From positions 731,531 through 795,530 of the forward strand of contig PUQB01000026.1 of assembly GCA_003024785.1 (NCBI GenBank): a stretch of 64,000 nt of DNA. The letters are read 5' to 3'. Position numbers and translations under genes: made by a program. Positions 1,204 to 62,312 of the stretch are shown here, piece by piece (position 1 is the stretch's first letter; every line of letters starts with the position of its first letter). This stretch comes from Selaginella tamariscina (Eukaryota; Streptophyta; Lycopodiopsida; Selaginellales; Selaginellaceae). Below the pieces are notes generated by a model that was not told the origin of the DNA, did not search any database, and was given only the letters and a program-made list of their open reading frames with translations.

Positions 1204-1873
1204 CTAAGAAATCCAGGCTTGACAGCTGTTTGTTACCGTCTCCTTGTAATTCACGACTTCCTGAATCGGAAACAGAACTTTCGCGTACGAATCTCCCTCA
1301 GAATCTGAGTTCGAATCTCTCATTTTGTCATTCAAGCTGTACAGCTTCTTCTTCGTGTTTGCGGATGAATGTGTGGCATTTTCTAAGGACTTGTGTGTGT
1401 TGGGATCGACTCCCATGCTTAACAGTTCTTGCTTAAATGATAGTTCCAGTAGTTCTTTATCTCGTTGTCACTTCGTCCAGGAATCCTTCCTGCAATGATC
1501 GACCACCTGTACACACACATGTATACATATATAGTCATATATATATGTGTGTGTACGTGTGTATACATATACCTGTTTCCAAGTAATGCATGAAGTCTGA
1601 TAATGAGATCGATTTCATCGCGGGAGAAGTTTCCACGTTTAATATCTGGTCTTAAGTAATTAAGCCATCTTAAACGGCAGCTTTTACCGCATCTTTGTAA
1701 TCCTGTAATAATATGCATTAATAATAACACACACACACACACACACCTGCTGCCTGGGGAAGCTTTCTCCAGTTTCCTTCCTTGCCATGTTTCTGTATGT
1801 AATTGGCAAGTACTGCATCTTCTTCCGGAGACCAATGTCCCCTATGGAGTTGGACATTGTTGTTTCTAATCAT
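1204..1873 (-). CDS. R2R3-MYB transcription factor
   Basis: Nuclear DNA-binding regulator. Exon 1 (1873-1747) starts at the ATG before the R2 repeat; exon 2 (1702-1573) is exactly 130 bp, the hallmark size of R2R3-MYB genes; exon 3 begins at 1506. Introns are GT-AG and phases join correctly. R2 contains WSPEED, GNWRKLP and [21 protein letters not shown]3 contains [12 protein letters not shown]. Between them [20 protein letters not shown] fits the bHLH-contact signature except that Ile replaces the second Leu. The frame meets a stop at 1421-1419, just after R3. Two bases on, another frame runs 1416-1204 and begins [11 protein letters not shown], the conserved GIDPxTHxPL motif that normally follows R3. 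One added base would make R3 and this motif contiguous, so I infer a one-base loss or a sequence error. The exact subgroup is not assigned. Intron 1 opens with a (GT)n run. Confidence 0.88.
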
Positions 1874-16633: not shown

Positions 16634-16840
16634 TGTGAGAACCCCGAGACACAACACAGTAAATATACGAAAAGACAGAAAACTCAGATATCCTTTGTAT
16701 TCAAGGTCAGGTTTATATATACAAAGGAAAAGGTATATTCTAGCTATATTTGGACTATCCTATCAAGGATTTAGCCAGACCATAAATATCTCTAGTAACT
16801 TCTAGAAACTTCTAGAATATACCATGGTAATTACCTTACA
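16634..16840 (-). repeat. LTR (3' LTR of the Ty3/gypsy element)
   Basis: 207 bp, identical by eye to 21137-21343, and flanked on the left by the AATCC target duplication. Confidence 0.95.
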
Positions 16841-19800
16841 TTATCCCCCCTCGTAAGAAAAACTTCTTCAGTCGTAAAACGTGAGCAACCAAAGGTGCTT
16901 CTCGAGACTCAACATCTTGCACATGGTAAACTTGAGGGCCAACTTGACGAAGAATCTTATAAGGACCGAGCCATTTCCGCAAGAAACCTGGAGTGAGTCC
17001 TTTTTGATGAAGTTCCGGAAAATGTACAAGAACAAGGTCACCAATAGCAAACTGAGGAGGTGGCCGATGACGAGAATTATAATCCTGTTGTTGTTGAACT
17101 TGTGCCCGACCTAAATGTTCTGCTGAGGTAGCATACAATAAAGGAAGAGCTCGATCTAAGTAAGTTGCCCAATATCGAGCTTCAGCATACTTAGGTTTGT
17201 GAGAAGCCAAACCAACTTCTGGAGGCATTCGAGGGTCTCGCCCATACAATGCTTTGAATGGAGACATGCCAATGGAACTTTGAATGCCAGTGTTGTATGC
17301 AAATTCTAAGTATCGCAAATACCAATCCCAATCATTCTGAGTAGGATTTACATACTTAGAAATCATACCTTTAAAAGTCCGATTCAAACGCTCGACTAAT
17401 CCATCTGTTTGTGGATGAAAGGGAGATGTGAAAGATTGTTGAATTCCCATCCGTGAAGTCAAAACCTTCAAAACTTCAGCAATAAAGGCAGGTCCATTAT
17501 CTGATAAAATCCGTTCTGGACATGAATGGCGCAAAATTACCCGAGTGAGTAGAAAATCAGCAACACTATGGGCCGTGGCATCTGGTAAAGCTCCAACCTC
17601 CACCCAACGTGTCAAATAATCTGTTAAAACCACAACATATCGGTTGCCTGCAGCTGAAGGTGGAAAAGGACCAATTAAATCCCATGCAACAAGTTCAAAT
17701 GGCCGTTCCACCTGTATAGACTCTAAAGCACCAGTTGATCGTGAGGAGTTCCGAGTCTGACACAATGAACAACTTCGTACGTACTGGATCACATCTTGTC
17801 GCATATTCGGCCAGTAAAAAGAACGTTGTAAGCTGTCCAAAGTTCTTCGATAACCAAAATGTCCGCCAGAAAGTGGTGAATCATGATATGCTGCAAGATA
17901 CCTAGGAACAAAAGTGGTTGGAATTGCCAAACGTAGTGAAGTTGTAACATCTGTGCCAATAAAATAAACCACACCGTCATGTATGCGAAATTGTGCCACA
18001 AATGAAGAAAAACGAGAGTTGGATGGTTGAGAAGGATTGGTTAGTGCCAAACGAATAGGTTGAATCCAAGCATCTGTTTCCTGAGCCCTTGAGACCTCTG
18101 CAAGAGATGGAATTGTAAGATCCAATTGATTGGCCATAACTGCACAAGGAGCCCTAGAAAGAGCATCAGCATCCACCATACTATCCCCGGGACGATGTTT
18201 GACCTCAAAGTCATACATTTGGAGCCGAAGTGCCCATCTGGCAGATCGTCCAAGCAACTTCTTGTTCTTCAGTAAGGCAAAAACAGCTGCATGATCACAC
18301 TCCAAAAGCGTATGAGATCCATGGAGATATACATGAAGACGCTCAAAAGCCCACACTGCAGCTAAGCACTCAAGATCTGAAGCACAATAGTTGTTTTCAG
18401 GGCCTTGCAATGCCCTACTCACATATGCAATGGGATGTCGAACGGACTCATCACATACCTCAGTTTGCATTAGGACTCCACCAATACCTACGGAAGAAGC
18501 ATCCGTTCGTAATATAAAAGGACGAGAAAAATCCGGATAATGAAGCACCGGAGGGGACGTCAAATACTTTCGTAGCTTACAAAAAGAATCTTCACAATCG
18601 TCAGTCCACACAAAAGGAACATCCTCATGCAACAAAGCTCGCAAAGGAGCATTGACATCAGCCAAACGAGGTATAAAACGTCCTAAATATGTGACCTTAC
18701 CAAGAAATCGTCGTAAAGACCGTACATCTGTTGGACGAGGAAATTTCGCCACAGCCTCCACCTTGGATGGATCCACACGTAACCCCTCACGAGAAACCAT
18801 GTACCCCAAATACGTAGTTTCAACTGTGCCAAAAACACACTTAGGCTTCTTCAACTTGAGCCCATACTCCCGTAAACGATCAAACACACGAGCTACTTCC
18901 TTGAGATGATCTTCCCAAGATCCCTGAGTATGAACCAGAATGTCATCCAAGTACTTTGCAACTGTCTCCAGAAACTCATCATTAAAAACTTCATCCATCA
19001 TGCGCTGAAATGTGGCAGGAGCAGATACTAAACCAAAAGGCATAACAAGGAACTCATATAAACCAAAAGGAGTTCGGAATGCTGTTTTGGGAATGTCTTC
19101 GGGAGCCATAGGAATTTGCCAATAACCTGAAGCAAGATCCAATTTAGTAAACCAACGACTCTTACCCAATTGATCTAACAAATCCTGTGTGTTCGGCAAG
19201 GGATAGCTATCTGGTTCTGTAACAGCATTGACGGGACGGTAATCCACCGTGAACCGCTTAGATCCATCAGGTTTATCCACCAAATGGGGCTCTGATGCCC
19301 ATGGACTGAAAGAACGGCGAGCCAGCTTCTTCTCCAGCAACTCTGACACACATTTTCGTATAATGGCCAATTCTTTTGGAGATCGCCTTCGAACAGCAGC
19401 TTTAGAAGGTAAAGCGTCCCCTGTTCGAATGTGGTGTTGTGTTCGAACCTTAGCAGTGGGGGTGATATCTGTAGAGAAAAGATCTGAATATTTCTTCAAT
19501 AATTGTTGTACCTGAAACTCTCGCTGAGAAGAAGTTGGTTCAGTTGCCACATGTACATTTCCAGAGTTCCTTGACACTGAGGACACCATTGCTGAAACAT
19601 CTAGCTCATGCATGATGGCACTTGACAAAATTGCTCCACATTGCTTGAGAGGGAGTTTATCCAAAAGAAAAGGTGAATGACCTGGAAGTATTAACCGTCG
19701 AGGCCCAAATTGGCAACTTGCCTTACATGCATCTAACCAAGTACACCCAAGAATAATATCAAAAATCTGGTGTGAGAATACATGGAGTTGCAACTCGTCT

Positions 19801-20270
19801 GCATAAGTCCCAAACTGCAAAGGTACTTGAGCAAGTGTAGACGAAGCAGCTCGAGTACATCCATCGCCATACAACACATGTAAAGCTTCCTTGCTTGGCA
19901 CCGTTGTCAAAGCACAACGTGTAACCACATTAGCAGAAATCGAAGAAATACTAGAACCTGTATCAATAAGAATAGTTACAGGGGTACCATGTATGAAACC
20001 TTGTAGTGTAAATGGAGATAACCCTTTATGAGGAGTTCGCGAAGCTTGAGGTGAAAAAGAAAGAAAAGATGAAGGACTAGGAGATGAAGGAAAAGTGTTA
20101 GGTGCCTTCGTACCCAACACACCTACTCGTTTCCCGCCTCCACAGGAGCAACATCCACAACAGCAACCGGTTGATTCTGACCTGGACGCCAACCTGGATA
20201 TGGTGGTCGCCAATCGGGAAACCGCCGACAATGTTGGTAAGTGTGACCAAGTACACCACAAGCCCAACAA
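16836..20270 (-). CDS. pol: pol polyprotein of the Ty3/gypsy element
   Basis: A 1144-codon open frame carrying, in order, a retropepsin (near residue 100), reverse transcriptase with the YLDD catalytic box (near 460), RNase H, and an integrase with its zinc-binding HHCC region, DDE core and C-terminal GPY-like segment. The domain order places it in Ty3/gypsy. It ends in the 3' LTR. It belongs to the element and is not a host gene. Confidence 0.93.
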   Translation of the reverse strand: MLGLWCTWSHLPTLSAVSRLATTISRLASRSESTGCCCGCCSCGGGKRVGVLGTKAPNTFPSSPSPSSFLSFSPQASRTPHKGLSPFTLQGFIHGTPVTILIDTGSSISSISANVVTRCALTTVPSKEALHVLYGDGCTRAASSTLAQVPLQFGTYADELQLHVFSHQIFDIILGCTWLDACKASCQFGPRRLILPGHSPFLLDKLPLKQCGAILSSAIMHELDVSAMVSSVSRNSGNVHVATEPTSSQREFQVQQLLKKYSDLFSTDITPTAKVRTQHHIRTGDALPSKAAVRRRSPKELAIIRKCVSELLEKKLARRSFSPWASEPHLVDKPDGSKRFTVDYRPVNAVTEPDSYPLPNTQDLLDQLGKSRWFTKLDLASGYWQIPMAPEDIPKTAFRTPFGLYEFLVMPFGLVSAPATFQRMMDEVFNDEFLETVAKYLDDILVHTQGSWEDHLKEVARVFDRLREYGLKLKKPKCVFGTVETTYLGYMVSREGLRVDPSKVEAVAKFPRPTDVRSLRRFLGKVTYLGRFIPRLADVNAPLRALLHEDVPFVWTDDCEDSFCKLRKYLTSPPVLHYPDFSRPFILRTDASSVGIGGVLMQTEVCDESVRHPIAYVSRALQGPENNYCASDLECLAAVWAFERLHVYLHGSHTLLECDHAAVFALLKNKKLLGRSARWALRLQMYDFEVKHRPGDSMVDADALSRAPCAVMANQLDLTIPSLAEVSRAQETDAWIQPIRLALTNPSQPSNSRFSSFVAQFRIHDGVVYFIGTDVTTSLRLAIPTTFVPRYLAAYHDSPLSGGHFGYRRTLDSLQRSFYWPNMRQDVIQYVRSCSLCQTRNSSRSTGALESIQVERPFELVAWDLIGPFPPSAAGNRYVVVLTDYLTRWVEVGALPDATAHSVADFLLTRVILRHSCPERILSDNGPAFIAEVLKVLTSRMGIQQSFTSPFHPQTDGLVERLNRTFKGMISKYVNPTQNDWDWYLRYLEFAYNTGIQSSIGMSPFKALYGRDPRMPPEVGLASHKPKYAEARYWATYLDRALPLLYATSAEHLGRAQVQQQQDYNSRHRPPPQFAIGDLVLVHFPELHQKGLTPGFLRKWLGPYKILRQVGPQVYHVQDVESREAPLVAHVLRLKKFFLRGGIM

Positions 20271-21006
20271 GACAATCGTCGTCGTCCTTGTCCTTGACCA
20301 CGACCAGCACCATTAATGCGAGCAGCTTCTACCTCCATAGGCACAGGACCAGCAGGCGCATTGAAAGTTGGAGGAGTGATGGCCTCTGGAATGGGTAATT
20401 GTACTCTTGGAGCCGCTTCAAAACGTTGTGCCGAGTGAAAGCCTCTTCCAAAGTGACAGGTCCCAGTGCCCGAACATAACCAACAAGATCCGGTCGAAGA
20501 GCAGGCCATAACATTCCTAATTTGCTACGCTCGGACATGGTGGGATCCGCCCGCATCAAGAGATCACGAAACTTTATAGCAAACTGCATGACAGATTCAT
20601 TTGGTGCTTGCTTCAAACTATGAAGTTGTTGAAACGCATCGTCAGAATCTTCTGCTTTCCCAAAAGCCAATTTAAATTCCGCTTGAAGGGTGAACCAATA
20701 TTGCTCATCTGTGAGTAAACCTGTTGGTGGTGGACGACTATTATACCATTGGAGAGCAACATCTAAAAGACAAGTTGGAAACTCGCGAAGGCAATGTGTA
20801 GCTGTCCACCCATGATATGTGGCAATATTGATGAAATGAGCCAACCAATGGTGAACATCTGCACCCGGCGCACCTCGAAAAGGTTGAGGTCGTACACGTG
20901 GGTTTGATTGAGGAGTAGGAGCTAGAACTGGAACTTGCAAGTGTTGAAGGAGCTGTTCATGCTGGTGTGTGATGCGAATTAGTTGTTCCAAAAGTTGTTG
21001 CTCCAT
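20123..21006 (-). CDS. gag: gag region of the Ty3/gypsy element
   Basis: Begins near 21006 with a Gln/Leu-rich N-terminus, followed by a retrotransposon gag core and a CCHC zinc knuckle next to pol. It is read in more than one frame, with about one interruption. Some Ty3/gypsy elements separate gag from pol by a programmed frame change, and I cannot say whether that applies here. Confidence 0.8.
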
Positions 21007-21136
21007 AAGAATCGTATGAAAGGAAACAAAGAAAACAAAGAAAAGAAGAAAAAAAAAAAAGGAAAGATTGAAAAGAGATAAAAGAAAAGAAGATCAAAAG
21101 AAACTTCTCTCACAAATTGCCCGACTTCTCCACCAG

Positions 21137-22965: not shown

Positions 22966-25905
22966 CTACTATGGATATATGATATAATTTATTCTTTATA
23001 CTAATATAATAGTTTAAAGTAGTAATTTCATAAAAGTATTATATAATACATTTTGAAAATCGTCAAATATAGTACTAGGTCTTCTAGATAAACATGCTCA
23101 GTATAGTACATTGTACGTGTGTGTGTATACTCTATCACACATTGTATTATATAGTATGTATATGTTGCTATAATCATATATATAATATTTTTCATACTTA
23201 TTGTTTGCAAATTCCAGTGGTTCAAAGGGGGGTGCACGAATATATGCTACAATGCAGCAGTAGACCGACATGTAGAAGCGGGAAGAGGTGATGACATTGC
23301 CCTTATTTGGGAGGGCAATGATCGAGGCTATGATGCAAAGCTTACATACAAGCAGCTTCTAGACAGAGTTTGTCAGGTATTTAGTCATATCTTTCATATA
23401 GTTTGATTTGTTAAGCCTGTTTCTAAAATTGAACATATTTGTTCAGCTGTCAAATTACTTGTTATCTGTGGGGACCAGAAAAGGAGATACTGTTGCTATT
23501 TACATGCCAATGTTGCTCGAGTTGCCAATTGCTATGCTGGCGTGTGCTCGTATTGGGGCTGTACATTCGGTAAAAATCCTATACATTATCTTTGTATCGA
23601 ATTTGCATGCATTTAATATATGTTACGTTTGCTTAGACGTATATAGATAAGTAACATTCATAAATATTATTACTTGTTATTTAGAAATATGTCGATCCTT
23701 CTAATTATAGTATATATCATAGAAATTATAAAGCTTTTTTACTTAATTTAAAATGACAAGCTCTCTCTCTTTCTCTCTCTATGGAACTAATATTTGAACA
23801 CTTAACTTTGCAGGTTGTCTTTGCTGGATTTTCTGCAGAAGCACTTGCACAGAGAATTATAGATTGCAAGCCTAAGGTTTTACTCACGACTAGCGGGGTT
23901 AAACGAGGGCCTAAACTTATTAAACTTAAAGAAATAGTAGACGATGCCATAAACCGTTCAATAGCGGAGGGTGGCGTTTCTGTAGGTACTCGTTCTTTCT
24001 ATATATTACATATAAGTATTTTATACACATAATGTATCTTAATATAATCTATACTAATATCAAGACGAACGCATGTGATCATCACTGATACATACACTGT
24101 TATAGACATTTGTTTAACTTACGATAATAGTCTGGCAATCAAGAGGGAAGATACACCATGGAATGAGAAAAGAGATATTTGGTGGCAGGTATTTGGAGTA
24201 TTATTATAGTTACCAGTTACTATATATTATTGTTATATGTATATGTATGTGCGTTTGTGTACATATATGCATGTATATAATATTATATTGTTTCTGTAGG
24301 ATGTAATTCCAAATTATTCAACCGAAAGTCCTGTTGAGTGGGTAGACGCAGAGGATCCCTTGTTTTTGTTGTACACCAGTGGTAGCACAGGGAAACCAAA
24401 GGTGAGTATAATATATACCTTCATATACATAAATGTGTGCATACATGGATATATACGTAGACACACATACATACCGTGTGTATCTACGTGTATATACATT
24501 AATATACACTCCAGTTGTGTGTATACGGTGTGTTTTCTTCTAGTGGTCCTGAACCATTTATATTCTTTTTAAGGGAGTATTACATACAACTGGAGGTTAT
24601 ATGGTTTATACTGCCACAACATTCAAGCATGCGTTTGATTATCACGATGGAGACGTGTACTGGTAATACATTTATATATATTTACTAACATTAAATATAT
24701 TGGCATGCATATTTATTTTGTTGGTGCAGGTGTACAGCAGATTGTGGATGGATCACTGGTCACAGTTATGTGACTTATGGTCCTTTGTTAAACAAGGCAA
24801 CTGTGGTAGTTTTTGAAGGAGTAAGTAGCTTAGTTCACTTTAACATCCGATATCATATATCACTACCGTAATAACTCATATATCTCAATATGTGTGAGAA
24901 GCTGAAATTTTATTTTTCATTATTATTTTTTTATAATGTAGGTCCCAAACTATCCTGATGCAGGTCGTTGCTGGGAAATTGTGGATAAACTCAATGTTAA
25001 TATTTCTACACAGCTCCAACCGCAATACGTTCATTGATGCGATCTGGCGACGAGGTACGTACTAAGTTATACTAACTCCTAACTAAACCTGTAATATTGC
25101 TATATTAATCTCTTTGATTATTCCAGCCAGTAAAGAGGCATTCTCGCAAGTCATTGCGCGTTCTGGGAAGCGTTGGCGAGCCTATTAACCCAAGTGCATG
25201 GCGGTTAGTGGTTATTTACATATGCATGGGTATATGTATGAATGCATCTTTATATATATAATTCTATATGTACATGTCTATTGTTAAGGAGATTTTCACA
25301 GTTTTCCCATTTGCAGATGGTACTATGAGGTTGTTGGTGACAGCCGATGTCCTATTGCGGACACATGGTGGCAGACAGAGACTGGTGGTTTCATGGTACT
25401 GAATCCTTTTGGTGTGCTACCAGGTTTTATCATCTCGGTTTGGACCCCGTAACATATCGTGATTTATGCAGATAACGCCTTTGCCTGGTGCTTGGCCATT
25501 GAAACCGGGGTCTGCTACATTGCCTTTCTTCGGTGTTCAGGTTTGTGATTCAATTATTTATATTATGAATTTAATACTATGCTTTAACATACTCATCAAA
25601 CATTGCTTTTCTTTGGTCTTCAGGTTTGTGATCCTATTTCATATGTTCTTATGCATTTAATACTATGCTTTAACATATTTATCGGTGTGTGCTTTTTGTG
25701 TTAACACTTCAGTTACATTATGGCAGCCAGCAGTAGTAGACGAAAACTCGAAAGAGCTAGAAGGAGAATGTACGGGATTCTTATGCATGAAGACTTCTTG
25801 GCCGGGAATGTTCCGTACTCTTTTTGGCGACCACTCTCGGTATGAAACAACGTATTTTGCTCCATTCAAAGGCTTCTATTTCAGTGGTGATGGCTGTCGA
25901 AGGTC

Positions 25906-26147: not shown

Positions 26148-27006
26148 TGAGTGATTGTGAGAGAGAGATAGAGAGGAGGCAGGGAGTTGATAATTGATCA
26201 TTCAGTGGCCATCGTATTGGAACTGCCGAGGTGGAGTCAGCTCTTGTTGCACATCCTCTAGCTGCAGAAGCTGCGGTAGTTGGAATTGAGCACGAGGTAA
26301 GAATTCCATGGCATTTACTTACCGAAATACATATATCTGCGTATATACTTACATATATATATATATATATCTGTATATATGGAAATATGTGTGCATATAG
26401 CATTCTGGAAATTTCTGCAGCTTAAAGGCCAGGGAATTTACGCCTTTGTAACCCTCAATGAAGGGGTTGAGTACACTCAAGAGCTGAGGTCAAGTTTGAT
26501 ATCTACTGTGCGTTGTGAGGTAATTCTTCTTCTATATAATATTGTATATACACACATGCACACTGTGTTTGCGGGTTCTTTTCTTCGGGCCTGTAAACAT
26601 ATAGGAGTATATAGAATATTGTGATTTTTTGCTTATGTAACTGTTTCCTGGTTTACACGTACATACATAAATCCTGTCAATGTGTGTTTCTTCTTCGTAG
26701 TTTACAATTTTACTATACACACATGCATACATACCTATGCAAATTTTATTATATACACATGCATACATCCCAATATGTATGTGTATGTGTGTGTCGTGTT
26801 GAAGAATGTGTGTGGTGCAGATTGGGGCATTTGCAACACCAGATGTAATTCACTGGGCACCTGGGTTGCCAAAGACTAGGAGTGGGAAAATAATGCGAAG
26901 GATTTTACGAAAGATTGCATCGAGGCAATTGGACGATCTTGGGGACATAAGCACATTAGCAGATCCTGGTGTTGTTGCTCAACTCATTGAGCTGACTGGG
27001 CAGTGA
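21494..27006 (+). CDS. ACS: Acetyl-CoA synthetase (AMP-forming), plastid type, 18 exons
   Basis: Activates acetate with ATP and CoA to acetyl-CoA; the plant enzyme is usually plastidial. Exons: 21494-21772, 22615-22758, 23218-23376, 23447-23569, 23814-23985, 24106-24188, 24300-24401, 24574-24662, 24730-24820, 24942-25054, 25127-25203, 25317-25395, 25472-25540, 25727-25902, 26014-26070, 26206-26296, 26421-26519, 26821-27006. The product is about 729 aa, near the expected plant length. The first 50 residues are Ser/Arg-rich with few acids, suiting a transit peptide. Landmarks: WFKGG (exon 3), the ATP-binding loop [12 protein letters not shown] (exon 7), [13 protein letters not shown] (exon 9), [10 protein letters not shown] (exon 12), [14 protein letters not shown] then [11 protein letters not shown] (exons 15-16), and [11 protein letters not shown] with the catalytic lysine (exon 18). 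Exon 10 is one base short: restoring one T in a T run gives the conserved [13 protein letters not shown]. Every other exon is intact. The leading Ty3/gypsy insertion probably affects expression. Confidence 0.96.
22911..22963. repeat. (TA)n microsatellite in ACS intron 2
   Basis: About 25 TA dinucleotides, uninterrupted apart from the ends. Confidence 0.95.
25535..25690 (+). repeat. Tandem duplication spanning the exon 13 donor of ACS
   Basis: A unit of about 80 bp beginning at the last bases of exon 13 (TTCAGGTTTGTGAT) and including TTAATACTATGCTTTAACATA is repeated in tandem (about 25535-25612 and 25617-25690). The second copy carries a second CAG|GTTTGTG donor-like site. Confidence 0.8.
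25907..25951. repeat. (CT)n microsatellite at the start of ACS intron 14
   Basis: About 22 CT dinucleotides beginning six bases inside the intron. Confidence 0.95.
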
Positions 27007-28270: not shown

Positions 28271-28855
28271 ATTAAAGATATGTGTACATATATGATGATT
28301 ACGTATCTTTAATAAAATATCTTTAATAAAATAAAGAATTAATAATATAAGACTTTGTGAAGGAGTGTATGCATACGTAATGAAGCACTCGAGATCCTAA
28401 AATATTAATTATTTAATTATTGATTATATACACCATTAGCATGATGAAGAACTATAATAAGACTATAATAAGTAGAGGAAGTGAAGTTTAGTATTTTTCT
28501 ATCATATTATATATATATAATATATTATATATCACATAATAAAGAAAAAATTTCCTTTGAATTAACCCATTCACATATGCATTTCAATAAAATTAAAAAA
28601 AAAAAAACATGTTAATTTAAAAATGCATTAATTCTTAAAAATTTACATTTTAATTCATTTTATGTTTTATTTTATTTATATCATAAAAATCTATGTTTTA
28701 TTTTTATTTTTCTCCATGTATCATAACAACTATATATATTTAAATCCCTCATTAAAAGTATTGGTATTAAGGAGAAACCTTTTAACTTTAGAAATCGCAA
28801 AAATAGACTATGTCATGAACCAATTTTAGATTTTACTTAATAAAAAATTATTAAT

Positions 28856-28901
<46 letters not shown>

Positions 28902-29200
28902 CAATACTTTATATTTACTTTAATAACAATTCTTTTAGCAATTTCTTTGTATATAACTTAATGATTCCATTTAAAATTTTAATCCACATACGTTCAAAAA
29001 TATTAATAAGAATTTGTTTTCAAAATATTACATTATATATAATTCAAAAACATAGAATTCTTTAACAAACTTGCTTATTAGTAACGTGAGGATCATAAAT
29101 AAATATATTCAATAATTATATAATGTGAAGAATTTCAAAGAATATATAAATAAAATATAAATTACGAATCCTTATAAACATTTAAATATCAATGCAAAAA
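27007..29200. other. ACS 3' UTR, then AT-rich intergenic DNA
   Basis: AATAAA overlaps the ACS stop codon and another lies near 27090, so 3' processing probably happens in the first 150 bp. Beyond that are (CA)n and (TA)n runs (27780-27826, 28076-28101, 28199-28262, 28861-28898) and AT-rich sequence with no coding or RNA signal until the snoRNA cluster. Confidence 0.6.
28199..28262. repeat. (TA)n microsatellite
   Basis: About 31 TA dinucleotides, one of the longest perfect runs in the window. Confidence 0.95.
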
Positions 29201-29202
29201 AG

Positions 29203-29287
29203 TGGCCTCAGCCGAAAGATGGTGATTATTGTTGTGAATCCTCATATGAGAAATCAGTACATTGGTAACATATATCATCATCGGCCA
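29203..29287 (-). ncRNA. Box C/D snoRNA, snR39/U51-type guide
   Basis: An 85-nt gene read from the minus strand. Terminal stem TGGCC/GGCCA; box C ATGATGA at 29281-29275; D' box CTGA at 29257-29254; C' box TGAGGAT at 29244-29238; D box CTGA at 29211-29208. The guide next to box D pairs with CCGAAAGATGGTGA, 14 nt of conserved 25S rRNA. The fifth base from box D falls on the second A of CCGAA, the residue known as Am807 in yeast (snR39/snR59) and Am1511 in human (U32/U51). The D' guide has no target I recognise. It is the last member of the cluster in the direction of transcription. Confidence 0.9.
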
Positions 29288-29300
29288 TATACGCGTATTG

Positions 29301-29331
<31 letters not shown>

Positions 29332-29354
29332 GTATACACAAACACAGAATTTAA

Positions 29355-29438
29355 GGGAGTTGTCAGCTGGTAGTGCATGTTATAATTCTTCAAATAAACT
29401 CAGAACAGGTCTATGAATCATATCATCATCCAACTCCC
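29355..29438 (-). ncRNA. Box C/D snoRNA, U25/snR56-type guide
   Basis: An 84-nt gene with a perfect 8-bp terminal stem (GGGAGTTG/CAACTCCC). Box C ATGATGA at 29429-29423; D' CTGA at 29403-29400; C' TGAAGAA at 29392-29386; D CTGA at 29366-29363. The D' guide CATAGACCTGTT pairs with AACAGGTCTGTG of 18S rRNA over 12 positions with one G-U pair. The fifth base lands on the first G of AACAGG, the U25 (human Gm1490) and snR56 (yeast Gm1428) site. The guide before box D has no target I recognise. Confidence 0.92.
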
Positions 29439-29466
29439 AAAAAAACAAAAAAGGGCAACAAGGGCA

Positions 29467-29547
29467 GGAATCAGACTGACGTGCAAATCGAAAAGAATTT
29501 GATATTCCGCATTAAAACCACTCAGATGCACAAAATCATCACTTTCC
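29467..29547 (-). ncRNA. Box C/D snoRNA, snR72-type guide
   Basis: An 81-nt gene. Terminal stem GGAA/TTCC; box C GTGATGA at 29542-29536; D' CTGA at 29525-29522; a weak C' near 29511-29505; D CTGA at 29474-29471. The guide directly before box D pairs with ACTGACGTGCAAATCG, 16 contiguous nt of conserved 25S rRNA. The fifth-base rule points to the A of CTGA, which by spacing from neighbouring known sites corresponds to yeast Am876, the snR72 target. Confidence 0.9.
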
Positions 29548-29549
29548 CA

Positions 29550-29562
<13 letters not shown>

Positions 29563-29596
<34 letters not shown>
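29563..29596. repeat. (CT)n microsatellite inside the snoRNA cluster
   Basis: About 16 CT dinucleotides between the third snoRNA and the candidate fourth. Confidence 0.95.
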
Positions 29597-29598
<2 letters not shown>

Positions 29599-29676
29599 GA
29601 TCAGAAAGAAAACAGTCAATCGTCACTGGCAATTAGCGCCTACGACTGGGGCGACATCAAGAATCGATCATCTCCC
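29597..29676 (-). ncRNA. Candidate fourth box C/D snoRNA (orphan guide)
   Basis: 80 nt with stem GGGA/TCCC, an imperfect box C (ATGATCG at 29671-29665), a possible C' (TGACGAT) and box D CTGA at 29604-29601. Size, stem position and spacing match the three neighbours, and it sits first after the telo-boxes. Box C deviates from consensus at its end, no clear D' was found, and I found no convincing rRNA match, so it may be decayed or an orphan. Confidence 0.5.
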
Positions 29677-29738
29677 GAAACACACAAACGCACACACGCT
29701 CTTACGACCTATGGAGCCGCTTTTTATCTACACAACCT

Positions 29739-29799
29739 AACCCTAATTCGTCTTACCAGTTCCATGTTCAAATCCCTGAAAATAGACGACTAACCCTAA
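29739..29799 (-). promoter_or_regulatory. Two telo-boxes, probable snoRNA cluster promoter
   Basis: AACCCTAA (plus-strand reading) occurs at 29739-29746 and 29792-29799, inside two imperfect tandem copies of about 53 bp. Telo-boxes are known in promoters of plant snoRNA and ribosomal protein genes. They lie 60-120 bp before the first snoRNA in the minus direction. Confidence 0.55.
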
Positions 29800-30013
29800 T
29801 TCCGCTCATCAGTCCCCGTGTTCGAATCCAGCAATTTAATTACCCTGTTTTATTTACAATATAATCATTTAACATTCTAAATGCTTTTGAAATTTTATTT
29901 AATAAATTTTATTAAACTGTAAGTTTTAAATACATGTAATACACAAATGTGATATATATCTATGTACACTCACACCTTTGTAACTGTCTATATATTTCAT
30001 ATACACGTAATTT

Positions 30014-30585
30014 GTAAATAAGGAAACTACGTATCCATTAAACTTTATGAAATTATAAATGTTCTTAAAAGTTTTAAAATTATAATTTTATCCCTGTGAA
30101 ATTTTGAATATTACAACAATAACCTTACTCATTTTAACACCTTTCAATTAAATTAATTTAAAATATTCTACTCGTTTTTAAAATAATTTAGAATATTTAT
30201 TTAATAAGAACAAATGGGATTAAATTAGGATTACTTTTTCTTTTCTACTCACTTAAGCATAAAATATATATATATATACGAATGGAAGACATTTGTGGAA
30301 AGAAAAGGACTTATTATTATAAATAAAATTATTAAATTGGACATAACTGTTAACATCTAAATTAGTTTACTTTTAATTTTTATTTGTTTTTCCTTGAATA
30401 TATTAACCAATAAAATATTTTAGTTGAAGGGTGTTAAAAGGTTGAATAAGGATATTTTTTGTAATTCAAAAACTTTGTAATGGCAAATTATAATTTTAAC
30501 TTTCAAAGATAAATTTATAATTTTGTAAAGTTTGAAGGGTATAAATGTAATTTTTCCTAAATAATATTAAATTTTCCTTATTTAC
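30014..30585. mobile_element. Fold-back MITE with long terminal inverted repeats
   Basis: About 30014-30185 and the reverse complement of about 30405-30585 share the ordered landmarks GTAAATAAGGAAA, AAACTTTA, AAAATTATAA, CCTTA and TTTTAACACCTTTCAA (with small differences). This gives imperfect inverted repeats of about 170 bp around a 220-bp centre. There is no coding capacity. It behaves like a non-autonomous DNA transposon relic; the superfamily is not clear because no target duplication is obvious. Confidence 0.65.
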
Positions 30586-35299: not shown

Positions 35300-37115
35300 A
35301 TGGGGAGGCAAACAAGGAGGTCAGTTCCCATATTCTTGTGTATGTTGTTCCTGTGGGGCTACCGGGAATACATAAGAGGAAGTCCCCCAGATTTCCAATC
35401 GCAACAAAGGAGACAGTTGAAGTCGTTCAGCAGCGCGGTGACCGGCTCACCGTTGCTGGAGTTCCTTACAGGCGGCGGCATGGAACACGGCCGCCGGGAG
35501 CACTCCCCGTGTCCGGGGGCTCGGGGACACAAGGGATATCCGGACTCTTGCTCATACGCAGTTGCCCGAGACGATTGCCAGTCCGGCGGGTTGTTCGAGT
35601 ACATACAGATGTTCTACTGCATTCCCGGGTCGGATAAGTTTTATGTCGAGGCACTCTGTTTCCTGGCGATCGCACTGTGGCTTGCAGCTCTCTCTACATG
35701 CTGGGGAACACAGCCGCTGATTACTTCTGTACCTGCCTGGAGCGACTGTCGGAGCTCCTCCATCTGTCGCCGACGATAGCCGGCGCCACGCTGTTGCCGC
35801 TTGGGAACGGCGCGCCGGACGTCTTCGCCAGCCTTGTCTCCTTTGTCGGAACTCAGGGCCGCGGTTCGCTCGGTGTGAACTCGGTTCTCGGCGGCGCATT
35901 GTTCGTGGTCACCGTTGTAGCGGGGCTGCTCAACTTCCTCGTCTCCGGTGACGTCCGTCTCGACCGGATGTGTTTTATACGAGACGGTACGTTTTTCCTT
36001 GCTGGTCTCGGTTTCCTCCTCTTTCTCCTCGGTAAGGGGAGCGTTACTGTGTGGGAGGCAGTGGTATATCTTGGAATATACTTTCTATACGCCACGTTTA
36101 TAACTGTATGGGAAGTGGTTCAGTCCAGGCAAGAAGGAAAGACGGCAGACGAAGAGTCTGGTGAGTACCGCCGGATTGGTGACTTAGACCGGACGGTAAC
36201 CATACCTCCGTGGCTATGGTCGTCCCATGTAGGCATCTATGCACAGGAGAATCACAAAGAAGTATGCCCACCGGTCCTTCCCCCAGCAGTGAACGGAGAT
36301 ACCGTCGGAAGCGTACCGAGGACAAAGAGTCTGATGAAGCTCGGAAGGAAGGCGTCTCGGGTGCTGATAGAGTGGCCGCTGGCGGTACCGCGGTGGTTAA
36401 CGATCCCGGTGGTGGACCGCTCACGGTGGTCTAGACGGAGAGCGGTAGTCGCTGCGACGCTCTCCCCGATACTGCTGGTTTCGGTTTGGAGTGCGGAGAA
36501 CGGGGTTCCCTTCACACGGGACCTGTCGGTTCTCGTGTCGGGTTCGGTCCTGGGCGTCGTGCTCGGTGTGACCGCGTACTTCACCACGGTGGAGGAGCGT
36601 CCGCCCCGGTACGAGCTCGTCTGGATAGCCGGTGGGTTCTTCATGAGCATGGTCTGGTTCTACGTCATTGCGAGGGAGCTGGTGGCGGCCCTGGTTAGCC
36701 TAGCGGCGATCATGGGGATAGACGCCGCCATGCTGGGGCTGACGGTGCTCGCGTGGGAAACTCTATGGGGGATTTGGTGGCCAACACCACGATGGCCTCG
36801 CGGGCCGGGAGCGACGGAGTGCAGATGGCCGTGTCCGGGTGCTACGGCGGGCCGATGTTCAACACGATCTTCGGTCTGGGACTCTCCCTCCTGCTCGGGG
36901 CGGCTCGAACCGAGTCGAAGGTGTACGAGTTCAAGAACGATCGGATGGGGTTTATCACGGCGCTCTTTCTAGTAGCTGCACTACTGGTTGCACTCGTCTC
37001 TATGGGTTTCTCCGGGATGAGGCCTCACTGGCTGCTCGGTGCCGGTTTGATGGGGCTGTATGCCGTGTTCATGGTGTTTGGGGCTTCCGCTGTATTTGGA
37101 GTATCGCTATTTTGA
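35300..37115 (+). CDS. Cation/calcium exchanger (CCX family), intronless
   Basis: Integral membrane antiporter of the Ca2+/cation superfamily. It opens with a signal-like hydrophobic stretch (VPIFLCMLFLWGY). A Cys-containing loop (GYPDSCSYAVARDDCQSGG) follows, then helices with YMLGNTAADYF, the alpha-1 repeat LPLGNGAPDVFAS, a long hydrophilic central loop, further helices, the alpha-2 repeat GNSMGDLVANT, and five or so C-terminal helices ending ASAVFGVSLF. The length of about 600 residues and the single exon fit plant CCX proteins. GC content is far above the neighbours. The frame shifts by one base twice, near 35690 and near 36750; at the second, one G is missing from a G run just before GNSMGD. 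Both look like single-base losses. Confidence 0.92.
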
Positions 37116-53601: not shown

Positions 53602-53928
53602 ATATATATATACATATACCACCCATTACAAAGCATATAATTATTTATATAAGTATTACCTGGTGATATATGCATCTTTGTCTGTCTCCGGCATTCTAGA
53701 CAAATCTTCTAACTCTGAGTATGTATTGCTAGCTGCTTCAGCATTCTTAGTTGCTGAAAAGGATAAAGAGAAACTACGTTTTAATATATATATATATAGA
53801 CATTATTATATATTTATACATAATAAAGTTAACAAATGTGATGTGTGATCATATAGATAAACACACATTATATATCTAAATATACATTATATGGTACATG
53901 TGTGTGTTGTGTGTGTGTGATTATATAT

Positions 53929-60373: not shown

Positions 60374-62312
60374 CAGAATTCAATCCAAATCATGTTTATG
60401 TGTAGATCCAATACACAAGCAAGCTGTGTGCGAAGATGGCAATGGATCAGTTTAAATCTCTCATTGAAGCTTTCTACAGCAAGGAGCTTAAGCGTTGCCT
60501 CAAATCCAGCACTCTGGAGCGGTCGGGTTTACTCTTAGAGCTGCATAAAAGAAAAGTATGCACACACACACACGCACATGCACTGTGTATGTGGGTATAT
60601 ATATTATATGTTAATGATTCATACACAGGAGGAGGCCAAGTGGGAGCCAGATATTTTAACACTTGAATGTAGAGAAAATTTCACAGAGAGATTAGCTAGA
60701 ATGAATTCTTGCTTGGTTGGGATGAGAATGGCAATTTTTGAAGAAATGCATCATTTACCATCTTCCAAATGGGGTAAGTTATAGATATTTTAAACATATA
60801 CTTATTTTTAAACATCAAGTAATAATATTAATATTATTAAATATTCTTAGATTTAATGCTAGATTATTATTATTTTTATTAATTATTAATTAATTAAATG
60901 CAGGTGATGTTCAAGTAGTAAAGAGTAACCTGGAGCAGCTTACTGAGGATCTCATTTTAACAAAGAGTAAAACACCAAAACAAGAGGAGGTTTTACTAAA
61001 TCTCAATAACTTATGCAGTAACCACGTGAGTAACCTGAGCTTACCTGGTATGTATTTCATGTTCGTCATGAGAATATTCTTGGGAATTTTGAAGGAAGAT
61101 GGTATCTCCGTACAATCTTCACCGTCTATTATACAACAGAAGGTCTCTCGTAACTTGTACAGGTACACACACGCATGTGTATACACATACACACATATTA
61201 ACAAGTGTGTAATATCTAGGTGATGAAGAGCTCCTTGAGAATACAAGTGAAGCAATCGCAAGCCATAGAGGCATTCAAAATTGGTCTATCACTCACCCTA
61301 GCAGTTTACCTGGGTATACTGTATAGTAAACCGTATGGATATACTGGTCTACGATCACGGTAACTCTGGGGTTATTTAACCACAGCTCAGGAACATTCTC
61401 CACCACTAGCTTAAGGCTGCAAGGGACGGTACTCGGTACGATATACGGTTACCTGGTAGCTCTTGTAACACACCAAGACGTACTGCAAACCATACTGGCG
61501 CTAGCTCCATGGTTCCTCTTCACAAGCTACATGCGAACCAGTAAGCTTCTGAAGCCTACCGGGTCTTCTTCGACGCTGGTCTCTGCTATAATAATCCTCG
61601 GCAGGAAACGCCCGGGTGCGGTCCAGGACTTTGCAATACTACGTATAACGCAGGCACTTCTGGGACTGGGGGTATACTTAGCTGTCGAGGCCGTTATACG
61701 TCCTAGACAGGCACCGGTTCTCGCTCGCAACCGGGTCGTCAAGAATATACTTGGAATCGCAGACCTGGTCGGGAAGAGCTGTGGTTCCGTGGCGTCCCGG
61801 TCGCTGGCGGCTGTAAACGATGGCAGACAGAGCGTGTAGAGGGCGTTACTTCTCTTAGGGCCCTCGTATACGAAGCAGAGCGTGACTACAGCGGGTTCTC
61901 TGGAGACTGCTACCGGAGGATGGCCGATGTCCAGTACCAGATAGCGGAACTGCTGCATTTTCTAGTGTTGGGTTTGGTTGAGATCAACGAAGTTAACCAA
62001 GTTAAAACGGGTGTTTGTGATCTGGTTAAACTCGTGGAAACTCACGTTATAGCGTCTCTCAATCGATGCTTAGCATGTATATCTGCAGAACATCCGAGGA
62101 GGTGTGGAGATACCGATACCGATACTGATGTGGAGAAGCAGCAGACAGGGATTGGCACTGAGTTAGTCGGATTGGCTCGGAGGATCGACCACGGATTTAA
62201 CGAGCTGTTGGTGGTGGTAGAGGAAGCAGCTGTAGGTGCCATTGGCTTCTGCTGCTCGACGATTCTTAAACGGACTCTGGAGATGGAAGAACTTGCCACG
62301 AGCTGTAGTTAG
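59254..62312 (+). CDS. FUSC-like (fusaric acid resistance-type) membrane protein, six exons
   Basis: Multi-pass membrane protein of the plant FUSC-like family, related by fold to bacterial aromatic-acid efflux proteins; the plant substrate is unknown to me. Exons 59254-59513, 60075-60338, 60406-60555, 60629-60773, 60904-61162 and 61231-62312. The first hydrophobic block has LRTGAACVLVMLGHL, then FPVFGYVVTILVLSQSTLGK and a YGTLQAVAMCMFVLQIIG helix. Exon 2 contains AVTTIIYVNVYIDSS and IIVLIFPIPRLASYQ. Exons 3-5 encode a long hydrophilic helical domain. Exon 6 restarts the membrane half with AFKIGLSLTLAVYLGILYSK, then TVTLGLFNHSSGTFS, LGLGVYLAVEAVI and a helical C-terminus. The arrangement of two membrane halves around a soluble helical block suits the family. 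About four one-base frame breaks occur (one in exon 1, about two in exon 2, at least one in exon 6), while motifs remain in order. Confidence 0.82.
59570..59735 (+). repeat. Duplicated C-tract/(CT)n/(CA)n block in FUSC-like intron 1
   Basis: TGCCAGAATACATCCCCC followed by (CT)n and (CA)n occurs twice, at about 59570-59627 and 59661-59733. The second copy has longer runs of every class. Confidence 0.9.

Follow-up and report, generated by a model that had tools for sequence, protein, structure and literature searches.

A cluster of U31, snoZ122, U33 and U51 box C/D snoRNA homologues in Selaginella tamariscina

Introduction

In Arabidopsis, the hid2 clusters comprise SnoR4a/b, SnoR5a/b, U31a/b, U33a/b and U51a/b, genes for small nucleolar RNAs (snoRNAs), and the hid2 insertion mutant shows disrupted expression of the cluster that corresponds to the locus described here (PMC8053127). 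Intergenic snoRNA clusters of plants have been associated with TeloSII promoters, in which telo-boxes occur together with Site II elements (PMC4660826, PMC3022908), a combination recorded for 16 of 17 such clusters in Arabidopsis and 19 of 42 in rice (Table 3 of PMC3022908). Here, we describe a group of four box C/D snoRNA homologues around positions 29201 to 29675 of a 64-kb stretch of Selaginella tamariscina DNA, which is referred to below as the window. Homology and predicted pairing with ribosomal RNA (rRNA) confirmed that this stretch encodes four putative rRNA-modification guide snoRNAs. The preliminary description of the locus as a polycistronic-looking cluster of box C/D snoRNAs was thus supported; what is added here is that the locus corresponds to the known cluster of U31, U33 and U51 but differs from it in the fourth member.

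Four adjacent box C/D snoRNA homologues

The units of the cluster, in their order on the minus strand as given by the Rfam searches, are as follows.

29598..29675, minus strand, U31 box C/D snoRNA (Rfam snoU31b; 40.7 bits, cut-off 37)
29464..29550, minus strand, snoZ122 (RF00343), in the slot between U31 and U33 (43.9 bits, cut-off 38)
29357..29436, minus strand, U33 box C/D snoRNA (SNORD33; 44.3 bits, cut-off 44)
29201..29289, minus strand, snoZ196/R39/R59 (U51 family; local search, 52.9 bits, E 2.3e-7, cut-off 55)

We take the Rfam name snoZ196/R39/R59 to be equivalent to the U51 family. In the whole window, Rfam returned three matches at curated scores, all on the minus strand and all within this cluster, while the Infernal check that had been suggested, a cmscan search of positions 28800-30200, returned four adjacent Rfam homologues on the same strand. 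These matches bore out the proposal that the units are box C/D snoRNAs, and all four share the orientation claimed for them. The unit previously counted as a likely fourth is the U31 unit, a genuine homologue with an aberrant box C. Furthermore, when both strands of the window were scanned for the combination of box C, box D and terminal stem, three candidates emerged, all of them within the cluster, with U31 and its altered box C as the exception. A terminal stem uniting boxes C and D was found in the cluster units.

Guides and rRNA targets

Conserved rRNA stretches served as search patterns for ribosomal DNA (rDNA) copies in the genome, and guides were read from box D or D′ with the target placed five nucleotides from the box. 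In all four units, at least one guide pairs with the rDNA copies of this genome. The snoZ122-slot unit pairs with the 25S A885 site over 16 bp, all Watson-Crick, in 6 of the 12 distinct 25S marker loci, and the U51 unit pairs with its own 25S site over 14 bp, likewise Watson-Crick, in 7 of the 12. In U33, the D guide is directed at the 18S U1273 site and the D′ guide at the 18S G1434 site, the pairings of 12 bp and 13 bp, with one G-U each, adjoining D and D′. The D′-side guide of U31 is directed at 25S, at the site of Arabidopsis G2620, where it forms 12 bp, two of them G-U, with the stretch GCTGGGGCGGCA of a single decayed 25S copy (L013/L015). Pairing with the rDNA copies therefore upheld the suggested mixture of 25S and 18S guides. 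The D′ guide region of the window U33 also matches Rfam snR56 (RF01188) at 31.2 bits, but this is far under the cut-off of 54, and the remainder of the RNA is U33. Yeast snR56 presumably targets the equivalent 18S site.

As a control, the CTGA boxes of the window (n=250) were compared with about 1.9 kb of the plant's own rRNA pieces, a pairing being accepted if it had 12 bp or more and no more than one G-U. Five boxes passed, four of them in the cluster (29474, 29403, 29366 and 29211) and one at 53741. Against reversed rRNA, 2 of the 250 boxes passed, one of them with 13 bp without wobble, so the weaker pairings of U33 and U31 draw their weight from homology, and in U33 also from spacing, rather than from length by itself. 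This bears on the idea that the cluster consists of chance motif matches in DNA rich in simple sequence. Chance pairings of 12-13 bp do occur, as the reversed control demonstrated, and two of the three gaps between the units contain GA and GT microsatellites. However, the local search of 1401 bases found four neighbouring same-strand Rfam homologues with E values from 2.3e-7 to 6.5e-5, and the guide spacings agree with the Arabidopsis sites. On the Rfam matches, the guide pairings and the box-motif scan, we regard chance as refuted, its probability being practically nil.

Dispersed partial copies of 25S and 18S rDNA were numerous and lay on different contigs (L018-L029, L038-L042 and L013-L016). 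Some of them end abruptly within the gene.

Comparison with the Arabidopsis hid2 clusters

We take the order in the Arabidopsis hid2 clusters to be SnoR5-U31-SnoR4-U33-U51, which would equal the order found here. As in those clusters, U31, U33 and U51 lie on one strand together with a further C/D snoRNA, U31 and U51 each have the same predicted 25S site as in Arabidopsis, and the D guide of U33 is placed at 18S-U1273, the site given for U33 in Table 1 of PMC8053127. The fourth C/D slot, in contrast, matches RF00343 snoZ122 and the A885 site, which the same table assigns to SnoR72Y, rather than SnoR4, a difference judged from the Rfam match and the A885 pairing.

Several observations weigh against reading the locus as four intact guide genes of the hid2 type. 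The U51 unit falls just under its Rfam cut-off (52.9 versus 55 bits). When the units were folded and compared with shuffled sequences, only U33 was clearly better (z -2.69), the z values of the others ranging from -0.10 to -1.18. Box C of the cluster U31 reads AUGAUcGA and departs from RUGAUGA by one extra C. The 25S-G3292 site, which has been reported for U33 of Arabidopsis, did not turn up here. The rDNA copies used for the pairings are incomplete and in part decayed, and an intact array was not found. Moreover, cmscan reported no SnoR5-like H/ACA RNA in positions 28800-30200, the coverage of SnoR5 by Rfam being unchecked.

The aberrant U31 and intronic paralogues

Alignment with both the Rfam consensus and a U31 paralogue from an HSP70 intron revealed the one-base insertion in box C of the cluster U31. 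Its D′ box, CGUA, is degenerate, and the Rfam U31 consensus is likewise weak in D′. By its Rfam score this unit is nonetheless a homologue of U31 and may encode a working C/D RNA, and it has kept the full guide and a terminal stem, GGGA/UCCC. The paralogue (contig C457, L012 1483-1557) has canonical boxes, with box C ATGATGA and D′ CTGA, and lies on the sense strand of its host, flanked by the HSP70-like frames AGVLIQVYEGER and SRTRDNNLLGKF, of which the downstream one matches Pfam HSP70 at 5.5e-32. It scored 33.7 bits, below the cut-off of 37, and is thus outscored by the cluster U31 (40.7 bits); no clear terminal stem was apparent in it by eye.

A search of the genome with a 611-base cluster query returned the cluster itself and one U33 paralogue on contig C505, with 84% identity over 88 bases. 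This copy (L002 1505-1586, minus strand; 42.8 bits, below the cut-off of 44) retains both guides and is intronic and sense-oriented in a proteasome beta-3-like gene, an exon of which matches Pfam Proteasome at 1.3e-12, with 7qve chain q the best among the 19 solved sequences listed. The U31 and U33 copies are both under their Rfam cut-offs and were identified from their boxes and guides and from alignment. Two or more of the four guides thus seem to occur in introns as well as in the cluster. A genome search with the RF00343 family found nothing, missing even the window copy, and is uninformative on copy number; copies were sought instead by DNA and pattern searches of the genome. Among seven pattern loci outside the window, cmscan (E <= 0.01) gave a snoRNA family match only for the U31 copy of L012. 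Three others (L004, L007 and L008) had only microRNA-family matches far under the cut-offs, three (L006, L009 and L011) matched nothing, and L004 and L006 are unlike snoRNAs by eye. In L009 (about 1457-1526, contig C871), we noted by eye a decayed U51-like unit with the guide and a 3′ stem carrying one change, box C being lost.

Near the U33 paralogue, two adjoining C/D snoRNAs were seen on the plus strand (L002 2474-2542 and 2570-2651; 31.6 and 32.5 bits, cut-off 40), between which the two guides of SnoR14 are divided, one to each. One member pairs over 12 bp (one G-U) at 25S (U803), 13 nucleotides before the U51 site, and the other over 14 bp at 18S (U1235), 38 nucleotides before the U33 site; the numbering follows Table 1 of PMC8053127 and the spacings were worked out by hand. 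It is as if the double-guide SnoR14 RNA had been split into two genes. The pair and the proteasome gene are divergently oriented, and several telo-box-like motifs lie in the stretch between them.

Promoter region and transcription

Two telo-box permutations lie upstream of U31, as had been claimed.

29739..29746, strand not assigned, telo-box permutation AACCCTAA, offset -71 from U31
29792..29799, strand not assigned, telo-box permutation AACCCTAA, offset -124 from U31

In having telo-box permutations within 1 kb before the first snoRNA, the locus resembles the plant TeloSII promoters (PMC4660826, PMC3022908); it differs from them in that neither Site II (TGGGCY) nor a TEF1 box was found within 1 kb upstream, nor any of eight TATA motifs within 150 nucleotides. 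The TeloSII combination of telo-box and Site II in the upstream kilobase is therefore incomplete, with two telo-boxes and no TGGGCY. To these points on the debit side we add that telo-box permutations are common in the window (32 matches on both strands, overlapping ones counted apart), so that the two before U31 are suggestive rather than proof.

As far as recognised frames go, the cluster appears to be intergenic. Judging by other plant snoRNA clusters and by the Arabidopsis counterpart (PMC8053127), it would be transcribed as a polycistron. Alternatively, the four genes could be transcribed singly or from the intron of an unrecognised host gene. The U31 and U33 paralogues of this genome are intronic, so that the plant seems to express some snoRNAs from introns, and the lack of an upstream Site II or TATA motif points the same way. 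Nevertheless, the nearest recognised coding frame to the left, an AMP-binding-type exon (26803-27006; Pfam 0.0004, 21.7 bits, under the curated 24.5), and the nearest recognised gene to the right, a Na/Ca exchanger from about 35.6 kb (Pfam), are both on the plus strand, opposite to the cluster. Reading through the list of open reading frames from 21.8 to 35 kb, we recognised no minus-strand coding exon, and the telo-boxes immediately precede the first unit. The Pfam scan covered five window frames, one of which (23757-24032) was without a match. We therefore consider single or intronic transcription improbable and favour an independent polycistron.

A tRNA scan found none. Elsewhere in the window, frames of a Ty3/gypsy-type retrotransposon (1158 and 254 aa, judged by eye) occupy 16836-21093 on the minus strand, and Pfam identified exons of a MYB gene (1419-1841, minus strand), the Na/Ca exchanger (35638-36972, plus strand) and a FUSC-domain gene (61330-61839, plus strand).

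Age of the cluster

The set of snoRNAs is nearly that of the thale cress cluster, found here in a seedless plant, so the linkage of these genes may have arisen earlier than has been supposed. Seven box C/D families have been named as conserved in land plants, with U31 and snoR72Y classed as recent innovations, in a study that itself allows for weakness of the homology search (PMC5122169). The presence of U31 and an A885 guide beside U33 and U51 in Selaginella argues for a greater age both of these families and of their linkage, homology search having overlooked them. The genes of this plant, which include axonemal-type dynein exons, point to a lineage outside the flowering plants; PF06369, a moss marker, gave no match, a result that does not demonstrate absence. 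No report of such a cluster in a seedless plant was among the matches listed from the open-access literature, no search having been aimed at this exact question; an earlier description of the cluster, for example in rice, is possible.

A doubtful but conceivable extension is that an arrangement U31-x-U33-U51 dates to the vascular-plant ancestor, that x first guided 25S-A885, and that Arabidopsis SnoR4, an orphan lacking a target, would be its worn-down descendant, which stayed in position once the site had passed to another SnoR72Y copy. This reading depends on the presumed position of SnoR4 between U31 and U33 in Arabidopsis, which lowers its odds. The differing fourth member also suggests where the orphan SnoR4 may have come from, in a form that can be tested.
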